Part shown: positions 15,378 to 27,680 of the stretch, piece after piece | Layout of the letters: every line of letters begins with the position of its first letter | How positions within the stretch are numbered: position 1 is the stretch's first letter | Source of the DNA: Alistipes sp. | GTDB lineage: Bacteria; Bacteroidota; Bacteroidia; Bacteroidales; Rikenellaceae | Assembly (NCBI GenBank): GCA_017555695.1 | Contig: JAFZFX010000012.1 | Location: 1 to 64,000 of the forward strand | Reading direction: 5' to 3' | DNA: 64,000 nt | Translations under genes and position numbers: made by a program | Notes under the pieces: generated by a model | The model's database searches: none | The model's input: only the letters and a program-made list of their open reading frames with translations | Told to the model about the DNA's origin: nothing

Positions 15378-15537
15378 GAAATTCAAAATTAAGAATTCAA
15401 AATTCAAAATTGAGGATAAATGTCATTGCGAGGAGGAGTTTACTCCGACGCGGCAATCTCCTGCATTGCACCAATTATTTTTTGGGATTTTTTTTGAGGA
15501 TTTTGAGTTTTTTTGAGAGAAAGAAAAATTAATAAAA
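15378..15537. other. Spacer with AT-rich repeats and a family A half copy
   Basis: The stop codon is followed by AAATTCAAAATT-type words in tandem (15379-15413). Similar short words follow the stops at 11801, 12898 and 33458. Then comes a family A half at 15421-15461 and a run of T-rich DNA. Confidence 0.55.
15421..15461. repeat. Family A repeat, half copy
   Basis: TGTCATTGCGAGGAGG to GCGGCAATCTC, matching the left half of the element at 1859. Confidence 0.75.
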
Positions 15538-16461: not shown

Positions 16462-16492
16462 TTGACAAACGGGTTTTGGCGTATTATATTTG
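16462..16492 (+). promoter_or_regulatory. Promoter of the phage-like cassette
   Basis: TTGACA near 16462 and, after about 19 bases, TATATTTG (16485-16492), a full match to the Bacteroidetes -7 consensus. The first coding start is about 370 bases downstream. Confidence 0.65.
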
Positions 16493-16499
16493 CAGTGTC

Positions 16500-16863
16500 A
16501 TTCGGAGGTAATCAACCCTTGCGGAGTGGCGCTGCAAATCTTTTTTGTCTATATATCAATGCGATAGGCTGAAGGGTGCAGCAATTCGATAACGAGATAA
16601 ATTTTTGAACTATGCTTTTCCTTTCACCACCCATACGGCAGGCCGCTCGGACGGAGCGCACCACGCGGAAAATGGAGTTATGAACATATCTTGATAAAAG
16701 ATATTAAATTATCAACAACGGAACGCCAGCGGCCTATGTCGTTGCTATTAGGTGGTTTGAAGCCATAGGCAAAAGTCATAAATATAGATTATCAACATCA
16801 ATTAACATTTTTATAAACACAAAGGCCGAGTCGCTCGGCCCGACCCTTAACACCCCTTACCTT
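16500..16863 (+). promoter_or_regulatory. Long structured leader of the phage-like cassette
   Basis: About 365 untranslated bases with at least three stems: ATATCTT/AAGATAT (16686-16704), GCCTATG/CATAGGC (16732-16770) and GGCCGAG-TCG-CTCGGCC (16824-16840). A 23-codon ORF (16612-16683) lies inside and could be a leader peptide, but nothing else supports it. I recognise no known riboswitch class. Confidence 0.45.
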
Positions 16864-17268
16864 ATGAATCGTACCTATTTGTTAAACGCCGTAGAGGGCA
16901 TAGCCACCGCCAGCGGCTACACATTCTACTCCGACAGCGAGCAGAGGATGCCCCAGCAGATTACCGCCTACCCCGCAGTGTGGCTCTCGCCGCCGCAGTT
17001 CACCTCGATGGAGGGGCGTAAGCGGGGCAAGGTGACCTACTCGCTGACTCTGCACGCAATGAACGAGGGGGCGAAACTCTCGCCCGCCCAGCGACAGCAG
17101 GAGTGGTCGCAGCTGGAGGATTTTCTGGTGGATCTGTTTGCGCAACTATCAGAGAAGGAGCGCATAGCGGTGGTCGATAAACTGAAAATCAAGCACTCGT
17201 CATCGACGCTGACAACCCACGGCGAGGTGGCCGCCACCGCCACGGCAGAGGTGGTGACCTTTTTCTAA
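16864..17268 (+). CDS. Phage-derived protein, possibly tail-terminator/tail-completion type
   Basis: A 134-residue protein that opens the cassette. Its layout (short N-terminal helix, YPAVWLSPP strand, KVTYSLTLHAM strand, a helix rich in Gln/Leu, and a C-terminal beta strand TATAEVVTFF) resembles small tail-completion or tail-terminator proteins that join head and tail in siphophages. This is a fold-level impression, not a motif match. It is separated from the next gene by 141 bases holding a family A half repeat. Confidence 0.45.
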   Translation: MNRTYLLNAVEGIATASGYTFYSDSEQRMPQQITAYPAVWLSPPQFTSMEGRKRGKVTYSLTLHAMNEGAKLSPAQRQQEWSQLEDFLVDLFAQLSEKERIAVVDKLKIKHSSSTLTTHGEVAATATAEVVTFF

Positions 17269-17293
17269 ATTCAGGATTTAGAATTATTCTTTT

Positions 17294-17330
17294 TGTCATT
17301 GCAAGAGCCGATAGGCTCGTGGCAATCTAC
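17294..17330. repeat. Family A repeat half copy inside the phage-like cassette
   Basis: TGTCATTGCAAGAGCC to GTGGCAATCTAC. Its presence between cassette genes indicates that the cassette has been resident long enough to collect a host repeat. Confidence 0.7.
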
Positions 17331-17409
17331 TGCATTACTTCTGTCGTGTTGCAGTGTCGGCTCAAATTTTATGCACTCTAAAACTTAACCAACCAAACCA
17401 AAACTTACT

Positions 17410-18381
17410 ATGAAATTTACTTCAATACCAGCTGCCTACTCGTCGTTCAACTCACCGCTCATCTACGAGTTTATGAACGAAGAGGGCGAGCAGGATACAC
17501 TTTTTGAAATTGTGGACCTTGCCACCAACGAGGTCATTGGCCGCAAGCAACTCTACGCCACTGCGGGCGGCAGCATCGACATCGCCCCCTACCTGCGCCG
17601 CCGAGCCAGAGTGTTGTTGCCGCAGAGTGTCGAGGGGTGCGGAGTGGTGGATTGCGCAACGCAGATAAAGGTGAAGGTGACGGCCGCCGGCGTCAGCAGC
17701 TCCTCGCGCAACTTCATCGCCGCCAAGGTGAGCCCCGATGCTCACTATGCGCTGCTCACGCACCAGATGGCGCAGAGGACAATGGCACACGACGAGTTCG
17801 ACATCGTAGCATACTTCGCTATGCCCGACGCCGTTGTCGAGGTCGTGGTGGAGGCCTCGGGCAAGGGTACCGAGTCGCTCAGCATCGAGCCTTCGTCGGG
17901 AGGTCACCGCTGCATAGCCATCTCGGCCCGAGAGTTCGATGGGGCTACAACCTCGCTCAAGGCGACAATCAAGGTCGATGGCCAGGTTGCCGATACCATC
18001 GAGTACGAGATTAAACCCAACCTGCAGGGTGCGCGCCGCATAGCGTGGCTCAACAGCGACTCATCGCCCGAACTCTACACCTTCCCGATGCGTAAGAGCA
18101 TCTTGGTGGAGGCGGTGCGTAAGCACATCGAGACTCTGTGGGGGCGTGAGGCGGCCTCGCTGGAGCGCCACAACGAGCTGAAGCTGCTCTCGGCATACGA
18201 GCCGCAGCAACAGATTGAGGCGTTGCAGGAGATTGTACACTCCGAGCGTCTGTGGCTTGTAAGAGGCGCCGAGGTGGAGAGCATCGAGCTTAAGACCGAG
18301 CGCATACTCGTGGCACCGAATGATGGAATGAGCATCGTCGAGATTGATATTTGCAGCGCAGAGGAGGGCGTCAGACTATGA
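17410..18381 (+). CDS. Phage-derived structural protein, possibly distal-tail-like
   Basis: A 323-residue protein with no signal peptide or membrane segment, mostly beta strand. The segment RRIAWLNSDSSPELYTFPM (about 214-232) resembles a pattern seen in tail or baseplate proteins of Bacteroidetes phages; this is recalled similarity, not a search. The C-terminal part (LLSAYEPQQQIEALQEIV, then ERLWLVRG) looks like an attachment domain. The stop overlaps the next start as ATGA, so the two proteins are probably translationally coupled and made in related amounts. Confidence 0.45.
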   Translation: MKFTSIPAAYSSFNSPLIYEFMNEEGEQDTLFEIVDLATNEVIGRKQLYATAGGSIDIAPYLRRRARVLLPQSVEGCGVVDCATQIKVKVTAAGVSSSSRNFIAAKVSPDAHYALLTHQMAQRTMAHDEFDIVAYFAMPDAVVEVVVEASGKGTESLSIEPSSGGHRCIAISAREFDGATTSLKATIKVDGQVADTIEYEIKPNLQGARRIAWLNSDSSPELYTFPMRKSILVEAVRKHIETLWGREAASLERHNELKLLSAYEPQQQIEALQEIVHSERLWLVRGAEVESIELKTERILVAPNDGMSIVEIDICSAEEGVRL

Positions 18382-20792
18382 GAGCGAGGGTAAAGATTGA
18401 CGGCCGCTACTGCGATGTGGAGGAGGGCTTCACGCCACCGCGCAACATCGTCGCCTTCTCCGACGAGGAGTGTGCCCCGAAGGGTGAACACCCCACCACA
18501 AAGGTGCGAATATCGCTCCCTGCAACGGCTACGAATGACTCCATTCTGGGGCTTGCGATGGATGCCTTCACGGCCGAGCGCTTCAATGCCGAGCAACATA
18601 CGGCCTCAATCGAGGTGGATGCTGTCGAACTGCTCAGTGGCGAGGTGGCGTTGGAGGGTGTGACCTTTGCCGATGGCAAGCAGTGGGCGCAGTACGATTT
18701 GGCTATCAGCCGCAGGGGTGCCGATTGGCGTGGGGTGCTGCAGCAGCGCAAGCTCTCGGAGGTGCAGTTGGAGTTCTCCGCAACGCTCACCTCCAGCGCC
18801 ATCGAGCAGAGTTGGAGCGGCAGCAAGAGCGTGAGGTTTCTGCCCGTACACTACGACCAATATGTGGTGCCCTACGACGAGCAGAGCCTCTTCTCGCCCC
18901 ACCGCTCGATGACCGTCGAGGACTATATGCCCTTCATCTCGGTGAGGGATTTGGTTAGGCAGATCTTCGCCGATGCGGGCTATCAGGTCAAGGGTCAGAT
19001 GGTCGATAGCGACCTCTTCCGCAAGCTCTACATCGTGGGGCGTTACGAGCAATCGACAGCCTCGGCCGTCAAGCTCGATGCGTTGGCGGGCTTCTGCGCG
19101 GGTCGTGAGAGCGACGCCACGGCTACGGCCAGCTCGTTGGGCAGGGTGCATCTGTCGAAGAGCTATGCGCTCAACTCGTTGGGTAACTTCGTCACCACGA
19201 CCGACAGGAGCATAGCCACCGATTTGTACGACAACTCGGCGCAGATGGTAGTTAGCGGGACACGCCCCTACTACACCTCGCCGCTGAGGAGTACGATGCG
19301 ATTCGAGTACTACATCAAGTACACCACCGACTTCAGCATTCAGAGCCGTACACGATTAAAGGGCTTCGACGGCATCTACATCGACTCGTCGTGCGACACG
19401 CGCCTCAGCCTGGCCAACCCCTACATCGACCGCCGCCAGAGCCTCGTGCCGAATATGAGCTACCACTGCATCGTCTTCGACCACGCTGAGGGTGCGCGCT
19501 ACCGCCTGATGAGCATCTCGCCCAGTGGCGAGAGTATTTTGGCGCAGTTCCAGACGCGCTCGGCCAAGGTGGCAACGCCTATGGATTGGAACGGCGTGGA
19601 TTGCGTGCTGGAGGTGGCGGGAAGCGATGGCCGTTACACCACCTACAAGGGAGATTGGGCGATGTATGACGGCTTCGTCGAGGATAGCGGCACAACCGAG
19701 GTGGAGGTAACCATCACCACACCGCCCGAGGAGTTGGGCCCGTCGCAGAGCCGATACTTCGACACGATGTACCTCTACGGTGCCGAGGCGGGACAGCGCG
19801 TCACGCTCTCGAAGGAGTGCCGTCTGCGTACGGTGTTCTCGCTGACCCCGTCGCTCGGCTCGCAACTCACTACGGCCGACATTATGCACTACGACTGCAC
19901 GCAGGAGGAGTTTGTCGATGCCTTGCAGCAGATGTTCAACCTGCGCATCTGTGTGGGTGGCAGTGGCCGTGAGGTCTATATCGAGCCCAAGGCAGAGTTC
20001 TATGCGGGCGAGGTCTGCGATTGGAGCGACCGCATCGTCTTGTCGGAGAGTATCGCCAGCGAGCATCTGGCCTCTGCCCATCGTAGGGTGATGAGGCTCG
20101 GCTATAGAGTCGAGAGCGACGGCGCAGTGGGGCGTTTCAACCGAGCCACGGGCGAAAAGTTGGGCGAGTGGAGTGTGGAGTGTTGCTCGCAACTCGCCAC
20201 CGAGGGCGTCGAGCGTAACGGCAATCCCCTCTTCTGCCCCACGATGTCGGCTACGGGAGTGTTTGGTGCGGCTCCCTCGGCGGCACTGCTGCAGATTGGC
20301 GACAGGGATGGCGATGTGCATGGCGACAGCGAGATGAGAATCGTCCGCTACGAGGGTCTGCAGACGCTGCCCGACGGCGAGGTGTGGGGATTCCCCTCCT
20401 ATGGCAGTAGTTACCCGCTGGCGACCTTCCACTTCCCCGCTCAACTCTGCGAGGCGGATGGCGCGGCTATGGTGGGTGGCGTGAAGCCTGCAGGTCCACG
20501 AAAGCCCTTTACGCTCTGCTTCGAGGATAGGGATGGCGCGGCGGGTCTTGCAAGCTACTACGCCGACGAACTCACCACACTCTCTCGTCGCAGCAGGGTG
20601 CGTCTGGCACTGAGAATCAGCCCCGAGGAGCTGAGCCAGATGAGCGACTGCAACGGCGCAGGGCCATCACGCCGCTCGCTCTTCAGGCTTAGCGAGGGGC
20701 AGTCGGCCATCTATCGTCTATATGCTATCGAGGGGTATGACACGCAGCGCGGTGTGGCCTACTGTACGATGGAGCGTGTGGAGCGAGATTAA
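18378..20792 (+). CDS. Large phage-derived protein, possibly baseplate/tail hub
   Basis: An 804-residue cytoplasmic-type protein. I use the ATG at 18378, which overlaps the previous stop (ATGA), rather than the upstream in-frame ATG at 18351 inside the previous gene. It is beta-rich, with a helical insertion near 180-200 (ISVRDLVRQIFADAGYQVKG) and another near 515-530 (EEFVDALQQMFNLRI followed by VYIEP). That pairing resembles hub or baseplate proteins of long-tailed phages that place a phage-specific domain after a conserved helix. It has no fibre-like repeats and no recognisable hydrolase motif. Function inferred only from context. Confidence 0.45.
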   Translation: MRARVKIDGRYCDVEEGFTPPRNIVAFSDEECAPKGEHPTTKVRISLPATATNDSILGLAMDAFTAERFNAEQHTASIEVDAVELLSGEVALEGVTFADGKQWAQYDLAISRRGADWRGVLQQRKLSEVQLEFSATLTSSAIEQSWSGSKSVRFLPVHYDQYVVPYDEQSLFSPHRSMTVEDYMPFISVRDLVRQIFADAGYQVKGQMVDSDLFRKLYIVGRYEQSTASAVKLDALAGFCAGRESDATATASSLGRVHLSKSYALNSLGNFVTTTDRSIATDLYDNSAQMVVSGTRPYYTSPLRSTMRFEYYIKYTTDFSIQSRTRLKGFDGIYIDSSCDTRLSLANPYIDRRQSLVPNMSYHCIVFDHAEGARYRLMSISPSGESILAQFQTRSAKVATPMDWNGVDCVLEVAGSDGRYTTYKGDWAMYDGFVEDSGTTEVEVTITTPPEELGPSQSRYFDTMYLYGAEAGQRVTLSKECRLRTVFSLTPSLGSQLTTADIMHYDCTQEEFVDALQQMFNLRICVGGSGREVYIEPKAEFYAGEVCDWSDRIVLSESIASEHLASAHRRVMRLGYRVESDGAVGRFNRATGEKLGEWSVECCSQLATEGVERNGNPLFCPTMSATGVFGAAPSAALLQIGDRDGDVHGDSEMRIVRYEGLQTLPDGEVWGFPSYGSSYPLATFHFPAQLCEADGAAMVGGVKPAGPRKPFTLCFEDRDGAAGLASYYADELTTLSRRSRVRLALRISPEELSQMSDCNGAGPSRRSLFRLSEGQSAIYRLYAIEGYDTQRGVAYCTMERVERD

Positions 20793-20831
20793 CCTTTTTT
20801 CGGGCGGGGCGGCCGCGAAGGCTCCCCTGCC

Positions 20832-20870
20832 TTAACCACAAAAAACAATTAAAAACCACAAAAGAGATTT
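20832..20870 (+). promoter_or_regulatory. AT-rich translation leader of the protease gene
   Basis: TTAACCACAAAAAACAATT at 20832-20850 is repeated almost exactly before the capsid gene (21981-22000). A GC-rich hairpin (GGGGCGGCC with GGCTCCCC) precedes it. A-rich leaders often replace Shine-Dalgarno sites in Bacteroidetes. Confidence 0.5.
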
Positions 20871-21941
20871 ATGCAGACAAAAATCACAATCAGAAACGAA
20901 GCCCAGGTATGCTACATCGACATCGAGGGTGTGATAGGTGTGCCCGAGCAGAATCAGTTTGACAACGGCTCGTCGAGTGTGGCTACATTCGAGGCTTTTC
21001 GCCGCGAGGTGGAGCGCATATCGGAGGTGGCTGCCGCGAAGGTGGTGGTGAACATCCGCTCGACGGGTGGCGATGTGAACGATGCGCTGCTCATCTACGA
21101 TGCCCTGCAGAGCCTCGACGCAAAGATTACCACCCGCTGCTATGGCTACACGGCCTCGGCGGCGACAATCATTGCGCAGGCGGCCGATAAGGGGTGTCGT
21201 GAGATTTCGAGCAACGCCCTCTATCTGATTCACAACTCGATGTGTGCCATCGAGGGCAATGCGGCAGCGTTGGAGAGCCGTGCCGAACTGTTGCGAAAGA
21301 CCGACGAGCGACTCGCCCACCTCTACGCCCAGCACGCTGGTCGCGAGGCCGAGGAGTTTGCCGCACTGATGGGCGAAAACAACGGCGAGGGTCGTTGGCT
21401 CTCGGCCGAGGAGACCATCGAGGCGGGATTGGCCGATAAGATGATAGACAACCTGATAACGGGCGCTATCATCCCCGAAGGCGACGACGACATCATCCCC
21501 GATGTCGTGCCCGAAGTGGTGGACAAAGCCAAGCCCCGTGAGGGGCAGGAAACGGGTGCCAAGCAGGAGGTGAAGCAGGCGCTTAATCGTGCTGCGGGAG
21601 TGTTGCTCGGCTATGTGTTGCGCCGATTCTCGTATCGTTGGGAGCAGTGGATGGAGAGCATCCGCCAAAAGCGTGAGGAGCGTCAGCGCAAGGCCGAAGC
21701 GGAGCCAGCACCCACCAACAAGCCGTGTGACGGTGAGCCTGTGGGTGGCGACAATGGCCTGCCCCAAGCCGCAGCCAAGGGGGCCAGTCGCAAGCCCTCG
21801 ACTCTACTCTTCGAGGAGGGGCAGCGCCGCTATCAGCCCACCCGCGTAAGACCCACCGAAGACCCCTCGGTCAATCATCACCACATCGGCTCGAACCAGT
21901 CGGCCTATGACGAGGATGCCCGAGCCTTCGGCAGATACTAA
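20871..21941 (+). CDS. ClpP-like (S14) phage prohead protease
   Basis: A 356-residue protein whose first 190 residues have the ClpP/S14 fold: STGGDV oxyanion-strand motif (64-69), nucleophile Ser96 in GYTASAAT and His121 in LYLIHNSM. In ClpP the third triad residue is the Asp of an E-R-D-R-F-L-S type segment; here the matching stretch reads GEGRWLS, with Gly174 at the Asp position and Glu173 beside it. The C-terminal 160 residues are charged and Pro-rich with a Lys/Arg/Glu helix (SIRQKREERQRKAEAEP), probably a scaffold-like extension. Prohead proteases mature capsid and scaffold proteins, and its position directly before the capsid gene fits that role. Confidence 0.78.
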   Translation: MQTKITIRNEAQVCYIDIEGVIGVPEQNQFDNGSSSVATFEAFRREVERISEVAAAKVVVNIRSTGGDVNDALLIYDALQSLDAKITTRCYGYTASAATIIAQAADKGCREISSNALYLIHNSMCAIEGNAAALESRAELLRKTDERLAHLYAQHAGREAEEFAALMGENNGEGRWLSAEETIEAGLADKMIDNLITGAIIPEGDDDIIPDVVPEVVDKAKPREGQETGAKQEVKQALNRAAGVLLGYVLRRFSYRWEQWMESIRQKREERQRKAEAEPAPTNKPCDGEPVGGDNGLPQAAAKGASRKPSTLLFEEGQRRYQPTRVRPTEDPSVNHHHIGSNQSAYDEDARAFGRY

Positions 21942-21980
21942 TTTTTCACCAGAGGGGCAGATGCCTCTCGCCAAAAACTA

Positions 21981-22004
21981 TTAACCACAAAAAAACAATC
22001 AATT
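21981..22004 (+). promoter_or_regulatory. AT-rich translation leader of the capsid gene
   Basis: TTAACCACAAAAAAACAATC repeats the leader of the protease gene. A hairpin AGAGG..CCTCT (about 21950-21967) lies just upstream. Confidence 0.5.
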
Positions 22005-23003
22005 ATGTCAAACATTATTGTAAACCCCAAGAACTACACAGGTCACGAACTTGAGACTATCTTCTTCCGCCCGTTGCTTTCGGGCCCTTCGGCCGAATCG
22101 CTCGGCATCCGCATCCTCTACAATATGCCTATGCCTACGGTAGTGCAGATGTGGGACCACTCGAACAATGTACTCAAGCCTTTTGATGAGGGCTCATCGT
22201 GGAGTGGCGGCACACGCAGCACCCACTACCAGAAGACCATTCCCCTCTCGCGTGTGAAGGCCGAGAACGCCTTTTCGGCGAGCGACTACTTCTCGACTAT
22301 CTTCGAGCTTATCACCAACCGCGCCGATGTGAATATGGAGGATTTGAGCGGCACCGAGCTTGAGGCCGCCGAGACCGAGCTCTTCCGTCGTGCCATCGCC
22401 GAAAGCATCAGAATGAACCTCTGGTTGGGTGACAAGGGTGGCGCACTCGAGACTGGCTACACCAGCTTCGACGGTCTGCTCAAGTTGGTCGATAAGCGTG
22501 TGGGCGACGGTAGTTTCCACTACTCGAGCAACATCCTGACAGGCTACCTCGAGGATTATGAGATTTGCGAGGTGCTGGATCTTATCATCAACAACGCCAG
22601 CCCCCGCCTCAAGGGTCTCTACAACGAGGGTCAGGTGGCCTTCTTCGTATCGCCCCACATCTACGCCCTTTATGAGAGCTACTTGAACTCGGCCTTCGGT
22701 GCCGCATCGTATGTCGATACGCAGAACGGCCGCAAGGCGTTGATGTATCGTGGCTTCCAGCTGGTAGAGATTAACCTCGAGCCCGCTATCTCATCGTCGA
22801 AGCTCTCGCACGACTTCATCATCTTCACCGACCGCAGCAACCTGGTGATGGCTGTCAATACCGCCGACAGCCCCGGCTCGGAGGTGCGTATGTGGTACAA
22901 CCCCGACGAGATGGAGAACCGCCAGCGAGCCGTCTTTGCCATCGGTTGCGAGGTGTTGGACGACGAGTTGGTGTGCGCCTTCATCGACAAGGCAAAGGAG
23001 TAA
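22005..23003 (+). CDS. Probable major capsid protein
   Basis: A 332-residue soluble protein in the expected capsid position, directly after the prohead protease. It starts with an extended N-arm-like segment (VNPKNYTGHELETIFFRPLLSG) and contains mixed alpha/beta segments compatible with an HK97-type shell fold (AIAESIRMNLWLGDK; AFFVSPHIYALYESYLNS; ALMYRGFQLVEIN; LVMAVNTADSPGSEVRMWYNP). The length and composition (no cysteine clusters, no membrane segments) fit. The assignment rests on neighbours and general pattern, so a different structural role cannot be excluded. Confidence 0.62.
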   Translation: MSNIIVNPKNYTGHELETIFFRPLLSGPSAESLGIRILYNMPMPTVVQMWDHSNNVLKPFDEGSSWSGGTRSTHYQKTIPLSRVKAENAFSASDYFSTIFELITNRADVNMEDLSGTELEAAETELFRRAIAESIRMNLWLGDKGGALETGYTSFDGLLKLVDKRVGDGSFHYSSNILTGYLEDYEICEVLDLIINNASPRLKGLYNEGQVAFFVSPHIYALYESYLNSAFGAASYVDTQNGRKALMYRGFQLVEINLEPAISSSKLSHDFIIFTDRSNLVMAVNTADSPGSEVRMWYNPDEMENRQRAVFAIGCEVLDDELVCAFIDKAKE

Positions 23004-23028
23004 TAACTAACCCAAAGATGACTGACAG

Positions 23029-23478
23029 ATGACCGAAAATAAGTTTTATAAACCTGTGGGCGGCATCGTGGCAGCCGAGTTGTTCTTTGCGGGCGAGTGC
23101 CGCAGCCTCGACGAGGTGCTGAGTGGCGAGTGTGTCGAGGTCGATTTGCTCGACGACGGCTCCGACTACGAGGAGTCGATAAGGGCCAAGGAGAGATTGG
23201 TGAGCGTGCAACACACGCTCACCCTCGTGGCTCCGCGCTCGAATGCCGAGGGGTGGCTTGCCCAAGAGTTTGTGGCACGATGCGCCACCGAAGGTGTGGT
23301 GGCTCGCATCGAGTTGGCTTCGGGTGAGGTGCTGGTGGTGGGCTTCGATGCCCGCTTTGGCGTCGAGCAGGCGTTGCGCCTCGATGAACTCCGATTCCTG
23401 TCGGGCCGCAGCCTGAACGACTCGCCAAGAGTCGCACTCAAGCTATCGTGTTGCGACACCCGCTCGGCCCTGCAATAA
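23029..23478 (+). CDS. Phage-derived small structural protein, tail-tube or head-completion candidate
   Basis: A 149-residue protein beginning KFYKPVGGIVAAELFFAGE. The middle LVSVQHTLTLVAPRSNAEGW and the repeated beta strands resemble small tail-tube or completion proteins found in Bacteroidetes prophages. I do not recognise a named family. It sits between capsid and portal, an unusual place in phage gene order, 25 bases after the capsid stop. Confidence 0.42.
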   Translation: MTENKFYKPVGGIVAAELFFAGECRSLDEVLSGECVEVDLLDDGSDYEESIRAKERLVSVQHTLTLVAPRSNAEGWLAQEFVARCATEGVVARIELASGEVLVVGFDARFGVEQALRLDELRFLSGRSLNDSPRVALKLSCCDTRSALQ

Positions 23479-23514
23479 GCCACGGGTGTGTGACTAACCT
23501 AATTTAATAAAAGT

Positions 23515-24738
23515 ATGGAACAGATAAAGAACAAAAGCCTTGTGGCGGTGGGCAACCGACGACCAGAGCCTCTGTTTGCTCTCTCGTCGCAGATGGTGCG
23601 CAACGAAAGGTTCTGGCGCTGGGGCGACGACAATATGATGCCCTACGCCCTATCGCTGATGTCGCGCCGTTCGACCACCCATCGCCGAATCATTAACGAC
23701 AAGGCCGACTACATTGCGGGCAAGGGCTTCTCCTTTGACGAGAGCGTGCCCCTGCTGAAACTGCTGGTCGGGCAGGCCAACAGCAACGGCGAGTCACTGC
23801 GCACGGTACTATATCGTCTGGCATTCGACAAGTCGCTGATGGGTAATGCCTTCCTGGAGGTGGTGACCGACGAGGAGCACTCCACCCTCGCGCTATACCA
23901 CATCGACGCCGCCTCGTGCCGTGTGGCACGCGACTCACAGCACATCCTGCTGCACCATAATTGGGGTGCCTTCAAGGAGGACGAGGCGCAGCAACTGCCC
24001 ATCTATCCTCTGTTTGAGAAGCAGAAGGATGGCTCGTTGCGTACGGTCATTCACTACAAGGAGTATGAGCCGATGTTCACCCACTACGGCGTGCCGAAGT
24101 ACATTGCTGGTATGGGCGTCTCGGCCATAGCCTACAAGACCGACTGCTGGAACATTTCGCGTCTGGAGAATTCGTTTCAGCTCTCGGGTGTGATGATGCT
24201 CGACGCCACAGCCGAGAACGAGGCCGAGGCCAACCGCATCGTGCGTGCCGCCGAGAGTCGTTTTGCGGGCAACCCTGGGCAGGTGATGTTCGTCTTGCGT
24301 GAGGGTGCCGAGAGCGACAACTCGAAGTTCATACCCATCGAGTCGCATAACGAAGGCGACTGGAACACACTGCACGATCAGGCCACTTCTGACATCGTCA
24401 TCGCCCACTCGTGGTTCCGCTCGCTCAGCGGATTGGACTACTCGGCGGGCTTCAGTGCCGAGCGCATCCTGCACGAATACGAGGTGGCACTCAATACGGT
24501 CATTCTGGCCGAGCAGGAGGAGCTGATGGCTCCCATCAAGCGCCTGATAGGCGATGTGGTGGGCATCGATACCTCGTCGCTGGAGATTGTCAATCGTCCG
24601 CCCACGCGCTCGAAGCCCATCTATATGAAGGTGTGGGAGGCACGCAAGGCCGACGGCCTGGAGTATGACGAGAACGACGAGCGCGAGCAGGCTTTCCTGT
24701 CGGAGATTCAGAAGTACAATGTGACCAAGATTAACTAA
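23515..24738 (+). CDS. Phage portal protein
   Basis: A 407-residue protein with typical portal features: an N-terminal RFWRWGDDNMMPYAL segment, stem-entry helix NDKADYIAGKGF, the wing region GNAFLEVVTDEEHSTLALYHIDAASCRV, and a C-terminal helical crown with SGLDYSAGFSAERILHEYEVALN and LMAPIKRLIGDVVG. Portal proteins form the dodecameric ring at the capsid vertex through which DNA passes, normally docking with terminase. No terminase gene is seen in this window. Placement after the capsid gene is reversed compared with the usual terminase-portal-protease-capsid order. Confidence 0.8.
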   Translation: MEQIKNKSLVAVGNRRPEPLFALSSQMVRNERFWRWGDDNMMPYALSLMSRRSTTHRRIINDKADYIAGKGFSFDESVPLLKLLVGQANSNGESLRTVLYRLAFDKSLMGNAFLEVVTDEEHSTLALYHIDAASCRVARDSQHILLHHNWGAFKEDEAQQLPIYPLFEKQKDGSLRTVIHYKEYEPMFTHYGVPKYIAGMGVSAIAYKTDCWNISRLENSFQLSGVMMLDATAENEAEANRIVRAAESRFAGNPGQVMFVLREGAESDNSKFIPIESHNEGDWNTLHDQATSDIVIAHSWFRSLSGLDYSAGFSAERILHEYEVALNTVILAEQEELMAPIKRLIGDVVGIDTSSLEIVNRPPTRSKPIYMKVWEARKADGLEYDENDEREQAFLSEIQKYNVTKIN

Positions 24739-24772
24739 TCACTGCCATCGAGCAGAGAAAGAGTTTTGTAGT

Positions 24773-25246
24773 ATGATAGAGTTTATTACACCCGCCGAAG
24801 TGAGGGCCATAGCCTTCACCGATGGCGAATATGTGGCCTCGGAGTGCATTGCGCCGTGCGACATCGCGGCGGCTACCGAGCGCTGGGTGGTGCCCGTTGT
24901 GGGTCGAGTCTTGCTCGAGGCCGTGGCCGAGGGTCGCTATGCCGAGCTGAAGGAGGAGTACCTCAAGCCCGTCATAGCCCTCTACACCCGACTGCTGGTG
25001 CAGCCCTGCCTCAATGCCTCGACCTCGCAGTTGGGACTGAGCGTAAGCTCCACCTCCGCGCGCCGTGCTGCCGACAGCAAGGCTCGTGAGGAGTTGCAGC
25101 GCGCACTGCGCCAGAGAGCCCACTTCCTGAAACTGCGCCTGAGCGACTACCTCAACGACAACGCAGATGCGTTCGAGGAGTACGATGCGCGCAAGAACAT
25201 ATTGAATAGTTGTCGTTGCGATGGAGGCTTTGTACAGATACGCTAA
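24773..25246 (+). CDS. Phage head-tail connector-like protein
   Basis: A 157-residue mainly helical protein (MIEFITPAEVRAIAFTD, then WVVPVVGRVLLEAVAEGRY, then LRQRAHFLKLRLSDYLNDNAD) whose size and helix pattern match head-tail adaptor proteins that bind below the portal ring. It follows the portal gene by 34 bases and overlaps the holin gene by 26 bases. The specific family is not certain. Confidence 0.55.
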   Translation: MIEFITPAEVRAIAFTDGEYVASECIAPCDIAAATERWVVPVVGRVLLEAVAEGRYAELKEEYLKPVIALYTRLLVQPCLNASTSQLGLSVSSTSARRAADSKAREELQRALRQRAHFLKLRLSDYLNDNADAFEEYDARKNILNSCRCDGGFVQIR

Positions 25247-25643
25247 CGGCCTGCTGACGGCCCTGGCTGCCCTGTTTGCCCCGATGACGCCACTCATCTG
25301 GTCGGTGGTGGCCTTCATCGGGGTGGACTTCCTCTCGGGTGTGGTGGCGTCGCGTGCCGACAGCCGCCGCGAGGGCGAGGAGTGGTACTTCGAGAGCCGC
25401 GAGGCGTGGCGCACCGTGACGAAGTTGGGCTTCTCGGTCATATCGCTGATGATGGCCTACCTGATAGATACGCTGATGCTCGACTTCCTGCATCTGAACC
25501 TGACAAAGCTCTTTGCGGGGTTTGTCTGCGGTGTGGAGATGTGGTCGTTTGTCGAGAACGCCTGCCGCATCAGCGACAGCCGCCTACTGCGACATATCAG
25601 ACAACTTGTAAGACAGAAGGTAAAACAACAGATTGAAAAGTAG
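25221..25643 (+). CDS. Phage holin family protein
   Basis: A 140-residue membrane protein with three to four hydrophobic segments (ALAALFAPMTPLIWSVVAFIGVD; LGFSVISLMMAYLIDTLML; LTKLFAGFVCGVEMW) and a basic C-terminal tail, the pattern of the Bacteroidetes/Firmicutes holin family 4. Holins permeabilise the inner membrane so that endolysin can reach the cell wall. The gene overlaps the connector gene and is followed two bases later by the endolysin-like gene, which is the normal lysis-cassette arrangement. Confidence 0.8.
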   Translation: MEALYRYANGLLTALAALFAPMTPLIWSVVAFIGVDFLSGVVASRADSRREGEEWYFESREAWRTVTKLGFSVISLMMAYLIDTLMLDFLHLNLTKLFAGFVCGVEMWSFVENACRISDSRLLRHIRQLVRQKVKQQIEK

Positions 25644-25645
25644 AG

Positions 25646-26047
25646 ATGAGTAGAGGATTAGATAACTGCAACCCTGGCAACATCCGCCGCTCGAGGGTGC
25701 GCTACAAGGGCGAGAAACACCCCTCGACAGATGCGTCATTCAAACAGTTCGAGTCGGTGGAGTGGGGCTACCGAGCTATGTTCGTGCTGCTGGATACCTA
25801 CAACCAGCGCTATGGCCTGAACACGCTGCGAGGCATAATCTCGCGCTACGCCCCACCCGAAGAGAACCACACGGCGATATATATCGACTTCGTGTCGTCG
25901 CTTACGGGCATCGACCCCGACGAGGTGATAGACACCCGCCAGCGCAAGACGATGATACCCATCGTCGCCGCAATGTCCAAGATGGAGAACGGTCAAAACG
26001 CCCGCCTCCGCGATGTCGAAGCCGGCTTCTCCCTCACCGAATTTTGA
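25646..26047 (+). CDS. Endolysin-like peptidoglycan hydrolase (P5/muramidase-like)
   Basis: A 133-residue protein with the pattern NPGNIRRS, FKQFESVEWGYRAMF, YGLNTLRGIISRYAP and EENHTAIYIDFVSSLTG, typical of small lytic proteins often annotated as structural protein P5 or lysozyme-like in Bacteroidetes prophages. There is no signal peptide, which fits release through the adjacent holin. Catalytic residues are not certain; an acidic residue near the ESVEWGYRA segment is a candidate. Its stop overlaps the start of a tiny ORF (TGATG). Confidence 0.68.
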   Translation: MSRGLDNCNPGNIRRSRVRYKGEKHPSTDASFKQFESVEWGYRAMFVLLDTYNQRYGLNTLRGIISRYAPPEENHTAIYIDFVSSLTGIDPDEVIDTRQRKTMIPIVAAMSKMENGQNARLRDVEAGFSLTEF

Positions 26048-26136
26048 TGTTTGCCACATTTTTATTAACTTTACTCGTGTGGAGTGCGAGGCTGAAGAGG
26101 AGAGTTCTCGGCCGAGGGCGCACACGCTGTAGATGA
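26047..26136 (+). CDS. 29-residue membrane-type peptide bridging endolysin and comEC
   Basis: This small ORF starts at an ATG that shares bases with the endolysin stop (TGATG, 26045-26049). It ends at a TGA overlapping the comEC start (ATGA, 26133-26136). The peptide has one hydrophobic segment (FATFLLTLLVWSA) followed by a strongly basic tail (RLKRRVLGRGRTRCR), like a one-pass membrane peptide. Position and size suggest a lysis accessory or simply a coupling ORF. No family is recognised. Evidence for translation is only the double overlap. Confidence 0.4.
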   Translation: MFATFLLTLLVWSARLKRRVLGRGRTRCR

Positions 26137-27680
26137 TGCGTATCTCTTGGGATAACATAGGGCGTCGTTGGGCGCGGATGACAATGTTGCGAGTGCTGAT
26201 GGCAATCGTCGTCGGAATTATGATAGCCGACCGCTGGGCGTTTCCGTTGTGGAGCGAGGCGGTCGGCTTTGTCTTTCTGGTGGGTGGGGCGTGGCTATGG
26301 CGCAGAAGGGCTGTGGCCAACATCTATGTGTTGATGGCGGCGGCAGTGCTGGCGATGTTCACATCGACGCTTACCCGTCCCGACCTTACGATGCCCGCGC
26401 GGGGAGAGTTGATGGAGGTTGTGGTGGACGACATCACTGCCCACCGTGCGGAGTACACCTCGGCACGAGGGCGTGTGGTGAGCATCGGCGATGGGGAGTC
26501 TTGCGCAACCCAGGTGCGCCTAAATATCGACCCTGCGGCAGATGTGGCTGTGGGTGAGAAGATTACGGGGTGCTTTCCGTTCACTCCGCTGACCCGACAC
26601 TCTGAGCATAGCGTCGAGCGATACCTTGCGCGGCAGGGTGTGGTGGCTACGCTCTACATCACGCCGCAGAGCATCATGCATCGCAGCCAGAGTGCGCCCA
26701 CGCTCGGTCAGAGGCTACGGTTATCGGCGCAGCAGCGCATTGCACGGCTCGGCCTTACGCCCGACGCAGAGTCTTTGGTGCGGGGTGTCACGACGGGTGA
26801 CAGGAGCACCATACAACCTTCGCTCCGCAACACCTATACCCTCTCGGGCGCGGGTCATCTGCTGGCCGTGTCGGGTCTGCATATCGGCTTTATCTTCTTC
26901 ATCGTGAATATGGCGACGACGGCGCTGGCGCTTTTGCGCCGAGGGCCACTCCTCAGGTGCTTGGTGGCGATTGTGGCCATCTGGCTCTACGCCGCAATGG
27001 CTGGTTTTGGCCCTTCGGTGGTGCGTGCGGGTGTGATGTTCACGCTGCTGCAGATGGCGATGCTTGGCAGCCGACGGGGCGATGGACTCAACACGCTGGC
27101 GCTGACGGCCTGCGTGATGTTGCTGTGGGATAGCCGCTGGCTCTACGATGCGGGCTTTGTGATGTCGTTTCTATCGGTGGCCGCCATCGTTGAGTGGGGC
27201 ATACCGCTGACGAGGTTGAGAGTGATTGGTAGCGACCGTCTGCCACGACTCCGTGCGGGTGAGATGCGAGGATATATAGTCTTTATTATCAGAAGAATAG
27301 GTCGCAAAGTATGGAGCGCCATAGCCATCACCATTGTGGCGAGCGTGGCGACGATGCCGATAGTGAGTCACTACTTCGGGGTGGTGACATTGTGGAGTAT
27401 CGTTGTCGGGCCGCTGATGGTGTGGTTGTGCTGTATAGTGGTTGCCGTGACGATGCTCTATGTCGTGGCGGGGTTTGGCCCCGTTGCACCTCTGGCGAGC
27501 GTCACAATCGAGTGGGCGGCCAGCACGATGAACGACATTGCCACCTGGTGTGCCTCGCACCCGAGCCTCATCTTCCCGCTCCGCCTCGACACCACATTCT
27601 GCCTTGTCGCCTACCTTATCTTTGCCCTCATCACAATCGCCCTCTGGAGCAGATCCGATTTTATTAATCGAGGGAACTAA
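26133..27680 (+). CDS. comEC: ComEC/Rec2 family competence membrane protein
   Basis: A 515-residue polytopic inner-membrane protein that forms the channel for single-stranded DNA in natural transformation. The N-terminal part has two or three membrane helices and a soluble beta-rich DUF4131-like region (about 85-190, with RGRVVSIGDGESCATQV). The competence domain follows (about 225-500), with the hallmark LLAVSGLHIGF near 244-254, FGPSVVRAGVMFTLLQ and DAGFVMSFLSVAAIV. The C-terminal metallo-beta-lactamase domain of longer ComEC proteins is absent, a form known in Bacteroidetes. The start overlaps the stop of the preceding tiny ORF, putting comEC at the end of the phage-like operon. Two ATG codons stand in tandem (26133 and 26136). 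Confidence 0.88.
   Translation: MMRISWDNIGRRWARMTMLRVLMAIVVGIMIADRWAFPLWSEAVGFVFLVGGAWLWRRRAVANIYVLMAAAVLAMFTSTLTRPDLTMPARGELMEVVVDDITAHRAEYTSARGRVVSIGDGESCATQVRLNIDPAADVAVGEKITGCFPFTPLTRHSEHSVERYLARQGVVATLYITPQSIMHRSQSAPTLGQRLRLSAQQRIARLGLTPDAESLVRGVTTGDRSTIQPSLRNTYTLSGAGHLLAVSGLHIGFIFFIVNMATTALALLRRGPLLRCLVAIVAIWLYAAMAGFGPSVVRAGVMFTLLQMAMLGSRRGDGLNTLALTACVMLLWDSRWLYDAGFVMSFLSVAAIVEWGIPLTRLRVIGSDRLPRLRAGEMRGYIVFIIRRIGRKVWSAIAITIVASVATMPIVSHYFGVVTLWSIVVGPLMVWLCCIVVAVTMLYVVAGFGPVAPLASVTIEWAASTMNDIATWCASHPSLIFPLRLDTTFCLVAYLIFALITIALWSRSDFINRGN

Follow-up and report, generated by a model that had tools for sequence, protein, structure and literature searches.

What is a run of ten intact, phage-like genes doing beside comEC, a DNA-uptake gene, in the genome of a gut bacterium? 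The question is raised by a 64,000-nucleotide stretch of Alistipes sp. DNA (contig JAFZFX010000012.1, positions 1 to 64,000; the whole stretch is called the window here), in which a first-pass annotation had noticed the gene cassette and had set a domesticated particle against a decaying prophage. The best reading is that of a scattered, probably SOS-controlled, tail-reduced element resembling a gene transfer agent (GTA), that is, a vertically inherited, domesticated phage that probably works as a GTA. Its head, connector, reduced-tail and lysis genes lie family-wide behind one conserved promoter, and its terminase lies at a separate site, divergent from an adjoining LexA/CI-like repressor.

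The cassette occupies 16864-26047 of the plus strand as ten open reading frames (ORFs), each with one stop codon, at its end. Adjacent ORFs are spaced by -26 to 141 bp, and comEC (26133-27680) follows the lysin gene after 85 bp, confirming the earlier description of ten intact plus-strand ORFs running from one promoter into comEC at 16462-27680. Lengths are given in amino acids (aa).

16462..16492, plus strand: cassette promoter (TTGACA, 17 bp, TATATTTG)
16864..17268, plus strand: g1, 134 aa, first gene of the tail-side module, kept in relatives
17410..18381, plus strand: g2, 323 aa, tail-side protein
18378..20792, plus strand: g3, 804 aa, probable distal tail or tail-tip protein
20793..20870, plus strand: gap of 78 bp; related phages have two genes here, a tape-measure gene of 1003-1010 aa and one of 80-84 aa
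20871..21941, plus strand: ClpP-type head maturation protease, 356 aa (phrog_94, E 2e-40; PF00574, E 8e-29)
22005..23003, plus strand: candidate major capsid protein, 332 aa, positioned after the protease and single-copy in family genomes
23029..23478, plus strand: g6, 149 aa, between capsid and portal
23515..24738, plus strand: portal protein, 407 aa (phrog_11226, E 6e-16; phrog_12, E 7e-12)
24773..25246, plus strand: DUF6712 protein (gene g8), 157 aa (PF20459, E 2e-12), head-tail connector by position
25221..25643, plus strand: holin, 140 aa (PF05105, E 2e-11)
25646..26047, plus strand: lysin, 133 aa (phrog_873, E 9e-43)
26133..27680, plus strand: comEC, 515 aa, channel domain only (PF03772, E 2e-45)

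Like a GTA, the cassette provides the host with phage-type capsid, portal and maturation protease genes. A tailocin would have a tail without capsid or portal genes; here portal, protease and capsid are all present. The product of 22005..23003 is a candidate capsid, so assigned from weak profile matches (phrog_11320, 2e-5; phrog_1623, 3e-3) and position, and the portal additionally matches PF04860 at E 1e-9, slightly under the family cut-off. Singly, g1, g2, g3 and g6 gave no useful family match in profile searches (g6 matched no PHROG family, and g3 members had no PHROG match below E 0.017), profile searches of the PDB returned nothing useful, and g1 had no significant match among phage and prophage proteins. 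Phage counterparts exist for the other three. The g2 profile matches proteins of phages L262-L264 that adjoin g3 and the tape measure (E 5e-9 to 9e-7), its match to a prophage protein being weak, and the g3 profile matches proteins of L261-L264 (E 4e-35 to 1e-17) and a prophage protein adjoining a tape-measure-like gene (hhalign 94.6%). A counterpart of g6 occupies the same capsid-portal position in phages L031, L032 and L261-L264, and g6 is perhaps a tail tube or head-tail protein. Within the family, prophages L248 (in genome G087) and L249 (G027) carry g3-like proteins that adjoin long tape-measure-like genes.

The best sigma-70-type match, at 16462-16490, reads TTGACA-17-TATATT, agreeing at 11 of 12 positions. 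Promoter-like sites numbered 9 in all as compared with 6.2 (sd 2.7) in shuffles, so that their number is no evidence in itself. The pattern TTGACA-N14-22-TATATTTG is found 5' of the cassette in 47 of 48 loci, namely 36 of the 37 listed loci that begin with g1 (L170 being too short upstream), 11 loci that begin with g2, and the window. A G+C-rich palindrome at 16823-16849, just 5' of g1, is terminator-like on the minus strand.

The cassette is not peculiar to one strain, an outcome that would have spoken against domestication. The capsid gene was found in 101 of 120 genomes of the family Rikenellaceae; among the 71 with completeness of at least 90% and contamination of at most 5%, 67 have it. 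Its identity to the window is 43-85%. A single copy is present in 100 of the 101, the capsid of G090 being split over two contig ends, and an internal stop occurs in G005 only. G103 alone has two full-length capsids (C84:658-1611 and C22:2906-3856). Beyond the family, the capsid profile matched 3 of 292 other genomes of the order, one strongly but partially and two weakly, and none of 295 other genomes drawn from the phylum. Portal loci are labelled Alistipes, Rikenellaceae, Tidjanibacter or Bacteroidales among the best 80 of 239 named loci, and the portal, whose identity to the window is 55-86%, is the most conserved of the proteins. Most of the relatives fetched have the same gene order; genera g8 and g14 deviate. 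The tail-side gene g3 was found in 95 of 120 family genomes. Its matches in genus g8 are weak and N-terminal at most, none was listed for G013, G033 and G043 of genus g14, none lies near the head genes of L283-L286, and for g1-g3 as a whole nothing beyond weak N-terminal matches was seen in these two genera. G046, a 99% complete genome of the window's genus, has terminase and repressor but neither capsid nor g3, a case in which the cassette has been lost naturally.

Phylogeny and selection tell the same story of residence in the host. In trees of 28 of 30 genomes (G000, with no RpoB match, and G057, whose capsid was not fetched, were dropped), capsid and RpoB have 16 of 25 splits in common, and terminase and RpoB 14 of 25, as compared with at most 3 and at most 4, respectively, in 2000 tip shuffles. 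Ratios of nonsynonymous to synonymous substitution (dN/dS) in close pairs run from 0.08 to 0.35 in the capsid and from 0.09 to 0.25 in the terminase, relative to 0.03-0.07 in RpoB. Selection on the cassette is thus purifying and looser than that on RpoB, and the cassette is inherited vertically with its host, as is characteristic of a GTA. GC content is host-like as well, as the annotation had it (0.56-0.61 in cassette genes, 0.52-0.60 in ten host genes), and the host repeat reported inside the cassette is there: the 16-mer tip of a host interspersed repeat occurs upstream at 15452-15467 and, between g1 and g2, at 17321-17336, with one mismatch.

Prophages are expected to be patchily present, flanked by att sites and liable to broken genes. 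The cassette is present in 101 of 120 genomes with one capsid stop, and its flanks have no 14-mer in common, which agrees with the absence of an att-like repeat noted earlier; no integrase, replication gene or att site was seen in it, no profile search for integrases having been made. A prophage decaying beside comEC could account for the missing tape measure and for some broken terminase frames. It is hardly credible for an element that is family-wide at 43-85% identity, nearly single-copy, under purifying selection and behind a conserved promoter, with host-like trees and intact frames, and it was rejected; in this the preference for domestication over decay was borne out. Somewhat less improbable, and improbable all the same, is a relict of a mobile element that still moves at times, either a capsid-forming phage satellite or a short-tailed phage. 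Capsid-forming satellites have head and packaging genes without tail genes, and genera g8 and g14 have a set that resembles this; the two capsid copies of G103 and the partial relatives that 3 of the order's 292 other genomes contain point the same way. This relict is opposed by capsid and terminase trees that follow RpoB, by the near single copy and the scattering of parts over the genome, and by flanks lacking a common 14-mer, with the proviso that integrase genes were not searched for.

A domesticated phage that works as a GTA requires a terminase to package DNA. The window shows neither terminase nor tape measure, and the cassette is locally terminase-less, as had been stated; the same genome has a terminase nonetheless, and the suggestion to look for a lone copy elsewhere proved fruitful.

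L075:9129-10562, minus strand: terminase large subunit of the same genome, 477 aa, alone among host genes on another contig

The protein matches phrog_38 at E 4e-82 over residues 12-467, and its PPQHGKS, Asp-Asp and nuclease residues are invariant across 29 rows, so that the gene content includes a packaging enzyme with intact motifs. PF03237 was matched in 18 of 19 genomes, the best match in G087 and G116 being a more distant, prophage-type copy. Over the family, the terminase is present in 106 of 120 genomes and keeps company with the capsid: both were found in 100 genomes, neither in 13, terminase alone in 6 and capsid alone in 1 (Fisher p 4e-12, kinship ignored). Of 93 genomes, 15 have the two genes at most 25 kb apart, 11 have them at a greater distance on one contig, and 67 have them on separate contigs, some of these possibly reflecting assembly breaks. 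In seven genomes of genera g8 and g14 they lie 1.0-2.2 kb from each other. Since the rows of these two genera stand opposite all others in a midpoint-rooted RpoB tree, it is likely that capsid and terminase started from one common locus. A 100-aa ORF (L075:10559-10861, minus strand) overlaps the start of the terminase by 4 bp, has counterparts in relatives, and may encode the small subunit. Weak phrog_2 matches in proteins of about 340 aa were considered as terminases and rejected; from their length these proteins resemble RuvB. The nearest named relatives of the terminase are those of Bacteroides phages B40-8, B124-14 and Barc2635, at about 48% identity over 94%. These and other named phage records have no match to portal, capsid or g3, for which the matches among phage records are human faecal fragment records only. 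Two such 'Bacteriophage sp.' records, MT838736 (L054, from Mexico) and MT838805, hold pieces of the cassette.

The divergent neighbour of the terminase encodes a helix-turn-helix (HTH) and a Peptidase_S24 domain. Among the 102 of 106 genomes tabulated (G005, G014, G023 and G075, with broken, distant or short matches, were left out), an S24 repressor lies at most 4 kb from the terminase in 88, and the two genes are divergent in all 88. All 25 distinct rows have Ala98-Gly99, Ser134 and Lys177; as the rows were chosen by a pattern that included the Ser motif, and lack the G013 protein, only A98, G99 and K177 count as independent. HTH, S24 domain, Ala-Gly site, Ser and Lys are together the sequence features of a self-cleaving repressor of LexA/CI type. 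We take this layout to be that of LexA and lambda CI, and therefore DNA damage may fairly be inferred to induce the locus under the repressor's control. A palindrome, TTCAA-N2-4-TTGAA, adjoins the terminase promoter in 18 of the 24 genomes when one mismatch is allowed and in 11 when none is, as compared with at most 1 and 0, respectively, in shuffles that kept single-base content only. An operator common to both loci was also sought and was not found: of the 48 cassette promoters, one has the palindrome beside it. The repressor is accordingly a likely regulator of the terminase and a conjectural one of the cassette.

What, then, became of the tape measure? Phage relatives of the element bear on this. 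L261-L264 are uncultivated phage contigs of 28-42 kb from IMG/VR, of which L262 and L264 are 99.98% identical and count as one phage. They differ from the cassette with a capsid identity of 28-35%. All carry g3, capsid, g6 and portal in cassette order, L262-L264 additionally carry g2 and gene g8, and L262/L264 also the ClpP-type protease. The overall order, g2-g3-(tape measure)-(protease)-capsid-g6-portal-g8, is the cassette's own with one gene more, so that what had seemed an unusual arrangement is the one found in real phages, less the tape-measure gene. In these three distinct phages, an ORF of 1003-1010 aa, absent from the cassette, sits between g3 and the protease position, and that of L264 is a tape measure (phrog_991, 5e-44; PF10145, 4e-28). 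The distance from g3 to the protease is at most 984 bp in 90 same-strand loci, a set that counts some genomes twice, and at most 1105 bp in 16 more, which is too short for such a gene. A search elsewhere for a tape measure, also proposed earlier, was less rewarding than that for the terminase: PF10145 had no match in the window's own genome, nor in 12 of 18 others searched, and tape measures of other types would escape this profile.

Remnants nevertheless seem to mark the spot. In many relatives an ORF of about 85 aa persists as the counterpart of the 80-84 aa gene of the phages, with E values of 6e-6 to 1e-4 among all ORFs collected. At 16 loci of genera g4, g9, g13, g16 and g20, an ORF of about 52-250 aa ending in VYVLESDIT-AQ--V lies at the tape-measure site (L281 is weak, and in G059 the remnant is fused to g3). 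A scan of IMG/VR for this tip returned 47 loci, one of them an Alistipes-type cassette. The tip lies at most 3 residues from the stop in 46 of the 47, and in 41 it belongs to a long ORF (500 aa or more, or 300 aa or more where the ORF is cut); some of these phage contigs have identical tips and are not independent. Several of the loci have g3 before and protease, capsid or portal after, and tip-bearing L312 encodes a PF10145 tape measure (4e-31). Direct comparison of the remnant with the tape measures of L261, L263 and L264 was not convincing (5, 619 and 33 of 1000 shuffles reached the score), the remnant profile did not list these three, a 39-aa remnant query had one match in the phage collection, at E 5, and no remnant was seen at loci of genera g7, g19 and g21 (L047, L272, L277, L278). 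The case for remnants rests on the tip-bearing phage contigs, position, and the adjoining 80-84 aa gene. Because the remnant ORFs carry the tip of phage tape measures, the gene would seem to have shrunk to its tip and then vanished in the window. The series, in which phages have the full tape measure, sister genera a remnant of 55-250 aa and the window nothing, would trace a route by which a long-tailed phage is domesticated.

A head without a tape measure might also be a domesticated, tail-reduced shell for killing or for cargo, whose terminase would fill heads with DNA that is never injected, as with PBSX. PBSX is named as a comparison in PMC12946183, and the missing tape measure and the failure to find g1-g3 in genera g8 and g14 beyond weak N-terminal matches would suit such a shell. 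It is unlikely in light of a terminase kept with all its motifs together with the capsid, a portal that is the most conserved protein (55-86% identity to the window), and the lack of any recognised toxin or receptor-binding cargo gene.

The link to comEC is the other half of the question. comEC is the only PF03772 match in the genome, and the list of terminator-like sites has none on the plus strand between lysin and comEC. The annotation had joined cassette and comEC in one operon, and the adjacency is kept in part of the family: among the 64 of the best 80 of 239 named loci that have at least 6 kb after the portal, comEC lies on the same strand at most 6 kb 3' of the portal in 33, and at most 1.8 kb in 31 of these. 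In the remaining 31 it is absent from that place or, in L170 and L174, on the opposite strand. The notion that comEC always follows the cassette was consequently rejected; the link is common, not obligatory. There is about an even chance that comEC is a neighbour by accident, with no functional tie, as the 31 loci without a same-strand comEC, its two inversions among them, would have it. The tightness of the 33 others counts the other way, as does the requirement of RcGTA recipients for ComEC and the co-evolution of comEC with GTA genes, both given in PMC10883770; DNA from RcGTA enters the periplasm and is then imported (PMC7296036). A rather doubtful extension is that the element is an SOS-controlled GTA, its tape measure lost, that is nearly a tail-less DNA shell, and that in many species the structural operon makes ComEC as well. 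A single transcript would then supply donor and recipient functions alike, and damaged cells would feed DNA into the competence pathway of their kin.

For the favoured GTA reading, the following course of events is proposed. DNA damage would lead the repressor to cut itself, freeing the terminase gene, and the cassette would supply proheads from its own promoter. The terminase would pack pieces of chromosome into the heads, g1-g3 would form the nozzle of a very short tail without tape measure, and holin and lysin would free the particles. ComEC, finally, would carry the delivered DNA on into the cytoplasm of kin cells, as it does for RcGTA; this is the weakest step. Cells of the family probably make small particles carrying bacterial DNA. 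If so, an abundant gut family carries an inherited device that moves chromosomal DNA, and the lone terminase offers a one-gene handle on the system.

Several observations weigh against this reading. Terminase frames are broken in G005, G006, G010, G014 and G072; four of the six dN/dS values for genes g2 and g8 are at least 0.5, reaching 0.53 and 0.58, respectively, in part a product of over-extended frames; the G013 repressor seems, by eye, to have Arg-Gly at the cleavage site; and the palindrome of the terminase promoter is nearly absent from cassette promoters. With its tape measure the element could also have lost the ability to deliver DNA. In a long-read study of three human donors (PMC12946183), Rikenellaceae were among the most abundant families in total DNA and did not dominate the particle fraction, which was dominated by Ruminococcaceae and UBA660, the differences not being significant, and 23 of 25 GTA-type events fell in Ruminococcaceae, Oscillospiraceae and Christensenellaceae. 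No particle or packaged DNA is known for the element. It has those genomic traits of a GTA that were looked for and is not a proven GTA.

Portal, protease, terminase and lysis functions are also those of RcGTA and the other alphaproteobacterial GTAs, whose head genes are likewise old and vertically inherited. The Alistipes element differs in belonging to another host phylum and other protein families, in having terminase and repressor at a separate locus, and in a comEC that adjoins the structural genes in about half of the relatives. RcGTA has kept a short tape measure, whereas none is left in the window's genus; at about 216 residues, it is described as very short (PMC7296036). FpGTA of Faecalibacterium is similarly a gut GTA-like element of two separate operons, apparently without a long tail, with both terminase subunits in its head operon and tail and lysis genes in the second (PMC12946183). 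In Alistipes, by contrast, the terminase stands apart and the lysis genes are with the head, and particles and DNA have been seen for FpGTA, whereas the Alistipes element, here too unlike RcGTA, is so far a matter of genes. Few GTAs are known outside the alphaproteobacteria, according to the same paper. A search of the literature on GTAs in Alistipes, Rikenellaceae, Bacteroidales and Bacteroidota, which left most subscription papers outside, found no such element; a GTA-like element that is scattered, has a CI/LexA-type repressor and apparently lacks a tape measure would be new here.

Some smaller observations concern single genes and records. In certain genomes of genus g9 (L048 8841-9107, L268, L269), the protease match is reduced to about 88-114 aa of the C-terminal part, as if the ClpP domain had gone and the scaffold part had been kept. 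The DUF6712 protein of genera g8 and g14 (L049:6373-7521, L050:13229-14221) carries a long Ser/Thr-rich insert. Pieces of the bacterial cassette have been filed in IMG/VR as viral contigs (L027-L030 and L257-L260). Finally, phages L031 and L032 have the head module alone in common with the cassette. There (L032:5672-7620) it is directly followed by a 555-aa tail-fibre-like protein, a C-terminal stretch of which is repeated nearby in varied form, by eye resembling diversity-generating retroelements.

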